Origin: Cryobacterium arcticum
Lineage (GTDB): Bacteria > Actinomycetota > Actinomycetes > Actinomycetales > Microbacteriaceae
NCBI RefSeq assembly: GCF_001679725.1
Contig: NZ_CP016282.1
Coordinates: forward strand, 310,001 to 374,000
Direction: 5' to 3'
DNA: 64,000 bases
The first letter of the stretch is position 1. Each line of letters begins with the position of its first letter. Positions 61,905-64,000 of the stretch are shown one piece after another. A program made the position numbers and the translations under genes. A model generated the notes under the pieces. That model ran no database searches. It saw only the letters and a list, made by a program, of their open reading frames with translations, and was not told the origin of the DNA.

Positions 61905-61954
61905 GCCAAGCCCCGAAAATCGCGGCTTGTGGGGCCCAAGTTACAGTTCGCGGG
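61895..61954. repeat. CGCGAACTGTGA family, copy D, forming both convergent gene ends
   Basis: CGGACTGTGAGCCAAGCCCC (61895-61914) on the left and GGGGCCCAAGTTACAGTTCG (61931-61950) on the right. It contains the stop of the ABC exporter and the last codons and stop of the DUF305 gene. Confidence 0.65.
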
Positions 61955-62603
61955 CGGCGAGCATCGACTCCATCAGGTTGATCTCGGACTCCTGGGAGAC
62001 GATGACGGAGTTGGCGAAGCCGAGGATCGACGGGTTGTTGGCGCGGTCCTGCACGGCCTCGGCCATGTCGACGGCACCCCTGTGGTGCGCGATCATCAGG
62101 GTGAGGAACATCCGCTCGGCGTCGGCACCCGTGGATGCGGTGAGGGCGGCGATCTGCTCGTCGGTGGCCAGTCCGGGCATCCGCTGCCCAGGGGTGTGCG
62201 CCCCGCCGGTGTGGCCGTGGCCTTCGTCGGAGCGGCCGGGCCGGGTCATCCAGGTCATCGACGGCTCGGGGCCGGCCTGGGTGAGGTTCCACTCGGTGAG
62301 CCAGCCGTAGAGCTGGCCGGCCTGCTGCGACTGGGTGAGGGCGATGTCATAAGCGAGCCGGCGCACCTCCTCGTCGGTGGTGCGGTCACGGATGATCATG
62401 GCCAGCTCGGCCCCCTGCAGATGGTGCACCTGCATATCGCGGGCGAATCCAGCCTCGGCACTCGTCGCGGTGGGAGCGGGGCTGTCGCCCGCGCTCAGAC
62501 GGCCCACTGAGTAGCCGACGAGCGCGACCATCGCGACCGCGATCGCGGCCGCGATGATCAGGGTGACGCGCCTGGCGCCGACGCTACGCCTTGCCGGGGC
62601 CAT
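61941..62603 (-). CDS. DUF305 domain protein with one N-terminal membrane span
   Basis: 220 residues. Span at about 13-35, then an extracytoplasmic ferritin-like helical domain carrying His pairs: MQVHHLQGAEL and MIAHHRGAVDMA, with a Met/His-rich loop between. Family members are linked to copper or other metal handling. Start lies inside the end of the DUF3105 gene (20-nt overlap), so the two are coupled. Confidence 0.9.
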   Translation of the reverse strand: MAPARRSVGARRVTLIIAAAIAVAMVALVGYSVGRLSAGDSPAPTATSAEAGFARDMQVHHLQGAELAMIIRDRTTDEEVRRLAYDIALTQSQQAGQLYGWLTEWNLTQAGPEPSMTWMTRPGRSDEGHGHTGGAHTPGQRMPGLATDEQIAALTASTGADAERMFLTLMIAHHRGAVDMAEAVQDRANNPSILGFANSVIVSQESEINLMESMLAAREL

Positions 62604-63306
62604 CGATGCCGCCGGTGCACGGTGAACCGGGCTCGGGCACCGAGTTGCTCTGCCAGTACTCCTGGATGAAGGTCGGGATGCGCTCGTCGTCGACCGAGTC
62701 GACCGCCAGCTGCGAGTTCCAGCCGCTGAGCACGATGGGGGAGTCGAGTCCCTCGAACGGCGAGAGGATCACGTAGGTGGAGGGCAACAGTCCGCGCAGG
62801 GTGGCCAGGTCGTCGTCGCTGAGCGAGGAGTCATAGGTGATCCAGAGGGCGCCGTGCTCCTGGGAGTGCACGGCGTTCTCCGACGGAACCTGCTCGGTGT
62901 ACACACCGCAGTTCAGCCAGGCCGGGTTGTGTTCGCCGCCGGCCGGCGGGGTCTGCGGGTACGTCACGGCGGTCTGCACGTGGGCGGCCGTGTTCTGGAA
63001 CGTCTGCACGCCCTCGATCTCGGCGCCCGTGCCACCGCCGGCGGTGTAGCTGGCGCTCTTGGGGGTGAGGACCACGGACGTGATGACCAGGCCCACCACG
63101 GCGACCACGGCCGTGATGCCCGCGATCAGGCCGATGCGCCGGTTGCGTGCACTGCGCTTCTGCTCGCGGTGGTACTGCTCGAGCTTGGCGGACCGTTGCG
63201 CCGCGCGCTGAGCCTTGACGCCGGGCTTGGGGGTGGACGATCCGGCGGAGGGGCCGGTGGGCGGGGCAGGGGTCACGAGGGCCTCTTTCGGTTGCTGTTC
63301 TCTCAT
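62584..63306 (-). CDS. DUF3105 domain membrane protein
   Basis: 240 residues from ATG 63306; the frame is open to 63348. Basic N-terminus, one span (RIGLIAGITAVVAVVGLVIT, about 59-78), then a DUF3105 extracytoplasmic domain with NCGVYTEQVPSENAVHSQEH and a C-terminal Cys in GSPCTGG. Function unknown. The 20-nt overlap with DUF305 suggests they act together, perhaps in metal or redox homeostasis at the envelope. Confidence 0.88.
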   Translation of the reverse strand: MREQQPKEALVTPAPPTGPSAGSSTPKPGVKAQRAAQRSAKLEQYHREQKRSARNRRIGLIAGITAVVAVVGLVITSVVLTPKSASYTAGGGTGAEIEGVQTFQNTAAHVQTAVTYPQTPPAGGEHNPAWLNCGVYTEQVPSENAVHSQEHGALWITYDSSLSDDDLATLRGLLPSTYVILSPFEGLDSPIVLSGWNSQLAVDSVDDERIPTFIQEYWQSNSVPEPGSPCTGGIDGPGKA

Positions 63307-63393
63307 TCGAACGTATGGACCGCCGCCCGCGCTTCCCGAGCGGGGCATCTCACAGTTGGTTCACAGGCTGGTCGGGACTCACGGGCGGCGACT

Positions 63394-63399
63394 AGAGTG
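63394..63399 (+). promoter_or_regulatory. -10 hexamer of a leaderless promoter before the leader peptide
   Basis: TAGAGT, then 6 nt, then GTG at 63406. Confidence 0.6.
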
Positions 63400-63405
63400 A
63401 AACCG

Positions 63406-63447
63406 TGATCATCCTGACGTCGTGTCCCTGTTGCTGCTTTCGCTAGC
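63406..63447 (+). CDS. Cysteine-rich leaderless leader peptide (13 codons)
   Basis: GTG ATC ATC CTG ACG TCG TGT CCC TGT TGC TGC TTT CGC TAG encodes V-I-I-L-T-S-C-P-C-C-C-F-R, with 4 Cys in 13 residues. It starts 6 nt after TAGAGT, so it should be translated leaderless. It lies 100 nt before the cystathionine beta-synthase start. In mycobacteria, poly-Cys leaderless short ORFs act as cysteine-responsive attenuators of downstream genes (established for that group); the same role here is inferred. Confidence 0.75.
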
Positions 63448-63548
63448 CGACTCGCACACCCGTATTCACCGGTTTCAGACCGCCACCAGGCCAGCGGCCA
63501 CGCCGGCATCGCTCCGCGCCACGTCACTCACGTTCGAAGGATCCCTTC

Positions 63549-64000
63549 ATGAAAATCGCTGACACCATCCTCGACCTCATCGGCAACACGCCCCTGGTCA
63601 AGCTGCACAAGGTCACGGAGGGCATCTCCGCCACCGTGCTCGTGAAGCTCGAATACTTGAATCCCGGTGGGTCCTCCAAGGACCGCATCGCCACCCGCAT
63701 CATCGACGCCGCCGAGCGTGACGGGCACCTATTGCCCGGCGGCACCATCGTGGAGCCCACCTCCGGCAACACCGGCGTGGGCCTGGCCCTGGTGGCCCAG
63801 CAGCGCGGCTACAAGTGCGTCTTCGTGCTGCCGGACAAGGTCGGCGAGGACAAACGCAATGTGCTCACCGCGTACGGCGCCGAGATCGTCGTGACCCCGA
63901 CATCCGTGGCCCCCGACGACCCCGAGTCCTACTACAGCGTCTCCGACCGGCTCGCCCGCGAGATCCCGGGCGCTTTCAAGCCCAACCAGTACTCCAACCC
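63549..64000 (+). CDS. cbs: Cystathionine beta-synthase (PLP-dependent), 3' truncated by window edge
   Basis: First 150 residues only. Fold type II PLP enzyme joining serine and homocysteine, or a close cysteine synthase. Start ATG 63549 with GAAGGAT upstream. PLP lysine Lys44 in GGSSKDR, phosphate loop TSGNTG at 71-76, and VLPDKVGEDKRNVLTAYGAE then VAPDDPESYYSVSDRLA, which resembles cystathionine beta-synthase more than CysK. It follows the poly-Cys leader. Confirming the CBS C-terminal domain needs the sequence beyond the window. Confidence 0.88.
   Translation, partial: MKIADTILDLIGNTPLVKLHKVTEGISATVLVKLEYLNPGGSSKDRIATRIIDAAERDGHLLPGGTIVEPTSGNTGVGLALVAQQRGYKCVFVLPDKVGEDKRNVLTAYGAEIVVTPTSVAPDDPESYYSVSDRLAREIPGAFKPNQYSN

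Follow-up and report, generated by a model that had tools for sequence, protein, structure and literature searches.

In mycobacteria, cysteine-dependent attenuation was reportedly shown by Canestrari and colleagues in 2020, as related in the papers that cite their work, and the speed of the ribosome on the Cys codons of such leaders is said to affect translation of the downstream gene. Leaderless Cys-rich upstream ORFs (uORFs) have been described before cysA2, Rv0485 and nirA in mycobacteria (Shell et al. 2015, PMC4633059). In the text considered here, Seliverstov et al. 2005 (PMC1262725) predicted Cys leaders for cys operons in Mycobacterium and in Propionibacterium acnes; for Bifidobacterium longum, they predicted one of poly-Cys type upstream of cbs. 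They found that the mycobacterial regions lacked conserved terminator hairpins and suggested the involvement of Rho. In Rhodobacterales, the uORFC-8-2 motif lies before cysS, and ribosome-mediated attenuation has been proposed for it (PMC8632094).

Here, we describe a short Cys-rich ORF upstream of cbs in a 64-kb stretch of Cryobacterium arcticum DNA, referred to below as the window. As in the mycobacterial poly-Cys leaderless ORFs of Canestrari and colleagues, in so far as citing papers describe them, the start is predicted to be leaderless, the Cys codons form a run and the gene downstream belongs to sulfur metabolism. The mycobacterial leaders have been tested by experiment, whereas the Cryobacterium leader is known from its sequence and stands before cbs. 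Judged on its place before cbs and its retention in many relatives, the leader very likely acts as a cysteine gauge for cbs.

The cbs locus of C. arcticum

The cbs gene begins at position 63549 on the forward strand, runs to the end of the window (63549..64000) and continues beyond it to contig position 374913. Its 454 aa product, cystathionine beta-synthase, scores 593 bits against the equivalog model TIGR01137 (cut-off 510.25), and the closest named relatives by cbs are Cryobacterium and Glaciibacter superstes, with identities of 88–95% for most. The gene that follows encodes a 386 aa protein of the cystathionine gamma-synthase family (NF005871, 648.8 bits, cut-off 513). The initial annotation had cbs making cysteine, which needs correction: the product of Cbs is cystathionine, and the next gene, being of the cystathionine gamma-synthase/lyase kind, would complete cysteine synthesis. 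Together, cbs and the next gene of C. arcticum contain a single Cys codon in 840. A Shine-Dalgarno (SD)-like GAAGGA precedes cbs (63536..63541, +), and its GAAGG can alternatively pair locally with CCTTC at 63544–63548. On the other side, cbs is adjoined by a divergent pair of genes at 61941–63348 (−) for a DUF305 protein and a DUF3105 protein, whose frames overlap by 20 nt; the DUF305 protein matches the CopM model below its cut-off.

The leader ORF, VIILTSCPCCCFR, comprises 13 codons plus TAG (63405..63446, +), as the initial annotation had it, and four of the 13 encode Cys. It opens with GTG ATC ATC CTG ACG TCG, continues with the Cys run TGT CCC TGT TGC TGC (63423..63437, +; Cys codons starting at 63423, 63429, 63432 and 63435) and closes with TTT CGC and the stop codon (63444–63446), 102 nt 5' of the cbs ATG. 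Upstream of the GTG at 63405 is the hexamer TAGAGT, read from the sequence as the −10 element of a leader promoter. The spacing of 6 nt between the end of the hexamer and the GTG was given correctly in the initial annotation; the coordinate 63394 was one off, as the hexamer occupies 63393–63398 (+). This spacing suggests that the GTG is itself the transcription start (+1) and that the leader is translated from a leaderless start. Consensus sigma-70 sites are absent from 63300–63700, and TAGAGT has no consensus −35 partner.

Recurrence of the leader upstream of cbs

A leader was defined by rule as an ORF of at most 30 codons that starts with ATG or GTG 5–8 nt after TANNNT and includes three or more Cys in a span of six residues. 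The rule was applied to the 350 nt upstream of cbs in several sets of loci, with expectations drawn from mononucleotide shuffles. Of 57 genomes of the genus, 56 were read, one (G024) being left out as it gave a match of just 25 nt. The family set comprised 87 of the 113 genomes from other genera with a match, and the order set 17 of 29 new loci, the remainder being short or cysK-like matches plus L173, whose genome is represented through L254. The class set was confined to places with a locus; one of its loci (L224) gave no start, and one in the set of named loci (L139) was too short.

The window as a whole, both strands together, contains one match to the rule. Within Cryobacterium, 37/56 cbs upstream regions match against an expectation of 0.06, and in the other genera of Microbacteriaceae 10/87 match, again with 0.06 expected. 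With such excesses over shuffled sequence in both sets, we conclude that the leader is no accident. The order search returned 1/17 and the class search 0/26 (0.00 expected in each). Among the named loci, a set that overlaps those of the genus and family, 7/79 match (0.02 expected): three from Cryobacterium, two from Occultella and one each from Promicromonospora and Propionicicella, the last of these more doubtful, with its ORF 310 nt upstream of cbs. On the reverse strand, no match was found in the 56 genus sequences or in any other set, save one in the named set. When another residue was put in place of Cys, there were 0–3 matches among the 56 genus sequences; among the 87 family sequences from outside the genus, Arg gave seven and Ser two as compared with ten for Cys, and in the named set Arg gave two, Ser two and Leu one of 79. 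Without the −10 requirement, the counts were 39/56 for the genus (0.8 expected), 11/87 for the rest of the family (0.5), 2/17 for the order (0.0), 0/26 for the class (0.1) and 5/74 for the named loci (0.5).

The order search contains a further case, L189, in which MQIFSCCCR starts 7 nt after TATGGT and 346 nt upstream of a cbs-like gene; the rule missed it owing to its position on the edge of the 350-nt region examined. This leader, from a different family of the order, is followed by TAA CCGAC, which is close to the end of the Cryobacterium leader.

The placement of the start recurs along with the Cys codons. In 46 of 61 combinations of −10-like hexamer and start, counted over overlapping sets, the two are separated by 6 nt (36 times) or 7 nt (10 times), in agreement with the leaderless geometry first proposed for C. 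arcticum. The leaders of other genera, which include VSTVKSCCCCR, MRLRLSCSCCPR, VFALNLCCCR and VLAPLSCCCR, are dissimilar in sequence, yet they share the same start placement and Cys run. Conservation of the Cys codons was a test that the initial annotation had named beforehand, and its proposal survived it, the leader being kept in roughly two-thirds of the genus sequences (the 37/56 above). What the sequences themselves show is an ORF that is present, recurs in the same placement and retains its Cys codons. It has the form of the poly-Cys leader-peptide attenuators of Actinobacteria, in which Cys codons cluster in a small ORF ahead of a cysteine or sulfur gene.

Conservation and loss within Cryobacterium

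Five sequence groups in the genus retain the placement and the Cys run. The leaders are VIILTSCPCCCFR and variants in clade 1, which includes the C. arcticum window, VLVRLKCPCCPGR and variants in clade 2, VPVHSSCCCCR and variants in clade 3, VLVLMSCPRCGCR and variants in clade 4, and VPVLTSCSCCCCLQPTL and variants in clade 5. All 11 clade-3 sequences have Cys at the same four positions, one of which shows a synonymous TGT/TGC change, whereas variation is seen at five of the six residues that are neither Cys nor the start. In clade 1, the number of Cys stays at three or four in 11/11 despite changes in codons 10–12. The Cys codon TGT makes up 95/143 of the Cys codons in the 37 genus leaders and 35/41 in 12 leaders from outside the genus; among mechanically chosen ORFs of the window it accounts for 23/163. 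A Cys run, then Arg and the stop codon (CCCR*), forms the end of many leaders; those of the genus often have CCGAC directly after the stop, and no compensating changes are seen there.

Variation by codon position was compared with that in cbs, in tests that count sites and ignore the tree (in clade 1, n=11 sequences, set against the initial 450 nt of the gene). Third positions of the clade-1 leader are variable at 1/12 as opposed to 100/149 in cbs (Fisher p 9e-5), and first and second positions are more variable than in cbs (6/24 versus 29/298, p 0.03). The scarcity of third-position changes indicates that selection on the clade-1 leader acts on its nucleotides. A role of the peptide alone would not require this, whereas it is to be expected if the leader strand pairs. 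No such constraint is seen in clade 3 (5/10 versus 55/75, p 0.15) or in clade 4 (3/12 versus 39/149, p 1.0).

The remaining 19/56 genus sequences fail the leader rule. Two of them (L025 and L036) have two Cys only, and in five (L049, L052, L053, L054 and L058) the GTG at the leader place, or the frame, has been lost, with CCCR still present in an ATG frame in L049 and L052. These five decaying leaders form a natural series in which the loss of a leader can be followed. In further sequences, for example L032, L033, L037, L039 and L056, the region upstream of cbs is different or shorter.

The C. arcticum genome has no match to PF01507 (APS/PAPS reductase or CysD) and has two NIR_SIR matches. In the genus, 18/57 genomes, some of them incomplete assemblies, are without a PF01507 match, and the pattern of these matches points to patchy loss of sulfate reduction. 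We considered whether presence of the leader tracks the lack of sulfate reduction and rejected this, as the clade-1 species with a leader include both kinds with respect to PF01507, and the species whose locus is without a leader likewise do and do not have PF01507. One record titled Sporosarcina (L144, NZ_JADHDY010000002.1) has a cbs match of the length and identity band seen in Arthrobacter records; perhaps, and this is a guess, it is mislabelled or contaminated.

Search for further leaders

Of the 38 leader segments collected, 21 were used to build a sequence-only model of the leader. In the C. arcticum genome, it scored 43.7 bits at the cbs leader and at most 15.9 bits elsewhere, and none of the 19 examined from the 22 other matches conforms to the leader rule. 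There is no Cys leader within 400 nt of C. arcticum cysK, at the two C. arcticum NIR_SIR loci, or in seven stretches of 9–9.5 kb, five from relatives and two from C. arcticum. Nor was a leader found at 30 loci around PF01507 genes (from 30 of 39 matching genomes), where the 1500 nt taken on each side may miss operon starts. A leader of different make-up could escape both the sequence-only model and the rule.

RNA structure and accessibility of the cbs ribosome-binding site

Within the leader, just 5' of the Cys run, complementarity and folding point to a candidate anti-RBS strand at 63411..63420 (+). Here ATCCT (63411–63415) is complementary to AGGAT (63538–63542), which overlaps the SD of cbs, and TGACGT (63415–63420) is complementary to ACGTCA (63521–63526). 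A first accessibility model, in which the entire RNA 5' of the ribosome was unrealistically hidden, gave no consistent effect. It was superseded by footprint-limited folding, in which only the ribosome footprint is masked and each leader is compared with 30 shuffled leaders. Three sequences were left out of the pairing and folding comparisons, namely L007 and L008 (near copies of L006) and L025 (two Cys only); for the clade-4 fold, the leader coordinates of L025 were set by hand, and one clade-3 analysis took in 9/11 sequences of that clade.

With the ribosome stalled at the first Cys codon, the predicted cost of opening the RBS falls in 10/10 clade-1 sequences (by 0.7–3.1 kcal/mol) and in 6/6 clade-4 sequences (by 1.1–4.4 kcal/mol), and in all 16 the gain exceeds both that with the ribosome at the stop codon and the shuffle mean. 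Taken singly, 5/10 clade-1 leaders and 2/6 clade-4 leaders stand out from their shuffles at 0.07 or less. For clades 2, 3 and 5, stalling at the first Cys yields a gain above zero in 2/4, 9/11 and 2/4 sequences and one above the shuffle mean in 3/4, 4/11 and 2/4, respectively. The gain often fades when the ribosome is at later Cys codons, for example in L012, L016, L017 and L026. For the C. arcticum leader it amounts to 1.1, a value reached by 30% of shuffles, and the SD also lies within a local hairpin, with an unpaired probability of 0.17 in every state under the first accessibility model.

Of 29 foreign RBSs, 28–29 are poorer pairing partners for a clade-4 leader than its cognate site; from the RBS side, 7/29 foreign leaders fit the RBS of the clade-4 sequence L019 as well as its own. 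Clades 1, 2, 3 and 5 show no general preference for the cognate leader–RBS pair, although individual sequences, L016 and L043 among them, do. Two-sided changes were found in 1/28 and 0/22 pairs in the consensus folds of two groups. A strong hairpin that precedes the SD in clade 3 has none. The fold of 186 nt of the C. arcticum region is no better than those of shuffles (z 1.1). A hairpin around the leader stop (GUCG...CGAC) was rejected, since its pairs break without compensation and so reflect shared sequence rather than a supported structure. A consensus scan of 63300–63700 found no intrinsic terminator, the hairpin with a U run that a classical trp-type attenuator has between leader and gene, and two Rfam matches in 63200–64000 are both far below their gathering scores.

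Proposed mechanism and alternatives

We favour, with moderate confidence, a ribosome-mediated cysteine sensor for cbs and the next gene that switches by release of the RBS. The leader would lie at the 5' end of the mRNA for these two genes of reverse transsulfuration, with transcription starting at or beside the GTG and translation of the leader beginning from a leaderless start. Under a shortage of Cys-tRNA, a ribosome would stall on the Cys run and cover the strand of the leader immediately 5' of it. That strand, if left free, would pair with the ribosome-binding region of cbs; with it covered, cbs would be translated. When cysteine is plentiful, the ribosome would reach the stop codon and depart, the leader strand would pair again and translation of cbs would drop. 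The start site, the translation of the leader, its response to cysteine and RBS release as the switch are inferred from the features set out above. Release of the RBS by a Cys-stalled ribosome has folding support in clades 1 and 4, that of C. arcticum included, and is favoured rather than proved. More tentatively, as a possibility to which we give somewhat less than even weight, leaderless Cys attenuators dedicated to cbs may span several families of the order, with the leader mRNA itself serving as the anti-RBS strand and hence under double selection, for Cys codons and as a pairing partner. If true, double selection would explain the near-frozen third codon positions of clade 1.

The same Cys-sensing leader could be coupled to another switch, in which Rho terminates transcription on the C-rich spacer once the ribosome has left and is prevented from doing so by a Cys-stalled ribosome. 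The spacer, a possible Rho-loading region (63447..63535, +), is rich in C and poor in G (0.46 and 0.23 over 63447–63536), its C minus G being at the 99.3rd percentile of 98-nt stretches of the 64-kb window; in 12/12 clade-1 sequences it is at the 97th percentile or above. Given this composition, Rho-dependent termination remains a candidate switch, and the absence of an intrinsic terminator from 63300–63700 is in keeping with it, as is the earlier proposal of Rho for Cys leaders (Seliverstov et al. 2005, PMC1262725). However, several other sequences that carry a leader, for example L020, L043, L045 and L057, show little or no such skew, and a ribosome stalled on the Cys codons would leave most of the spacer uncovered. 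We rank termination by Rho second to RBS release, as its main rival, and regard it as rather unlikely.

Explanations that dispense with cysteine sensing fare less well. The conserved piece might be a promoter and mRNA 5' element in which the Cys codons are incidental and any regulation is exerted by a protein or by RNA structure. That would suit the clade-1 leader, where conservation is of the nucleotides and not the peptide (third positions 1/12 variable, first and second 6/24), but the dissimilar leaders of other genera have the start placement and the Cys run in common, no residue other than Cys exceeds 3/56 in the genus, and in the family only Arg approaches Cys (7/87 as against 10), many leaders having Arg beside the Cys run. 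We consider this explanation improbable. An action of the small peptide itself, for instance through the binding of metals or thiols, is more improbable still: the CPCC and CCCC runs of the leaders could bind metal, but between clades the Cys run and its position are kept while length and other residues differ. That the leader is a chance ORF is hardly credible, with 37/56 matches facing a shuffle expectation of 0.06 and nothing found in its favour.

Comparison with known systems

The initial annotation had set the leader apart by its position before a gene other than those known in mycobacteria, and in this it was anticipated: a poly-Cys leader before B. longum cbs was predicted in 2005 (PMC1262725), and the position upstream of cbs is shared by that predicted leader and the one in C. 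arcticum. The leaders of Seliverstov et al. and that of C. arcticum are alike in being short ORFs with a Cys run near the stop and no conserved terminator hairpin. They differ in that the earlier cases come from other families, include one cbs case and, in the text of that paper examined here, are presented with no mention of leaderless starts. The uORFs of Shell et al., which are conserved in mycobacteria, likewise have leaderless geometry and clustered Cys codons, but the downstream genes are different. In contrast to mycobacteria, no Cys leader was found at C. arcticum cysK or in the cysH and sir stretches of the genus that were examined. With the uORFC-8-2 motif (in the text available for it) the Cryobacterium leader shares tandem Cys codons in a uORF; the two stems, the terminal U run, the alphaproteobacterial host and the position before cysS belong to uORFC-8-2 only.

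A search of titles and passages, with most subscription literature outside it, returned no published report of a Cys leader peptide in Microbacteriaceae. What is new here is the set of Microbacteriaceae cases, their losses and the constraint at the nucleotide level in one clade. A single genus with leaders that are present, altered or lost offers a natural set for comparing mechanism and loss, and with the Cryobacterium leader a form of regulation that has been reported for mycobacteria would reach another family, and reverse transsulfuration as well.
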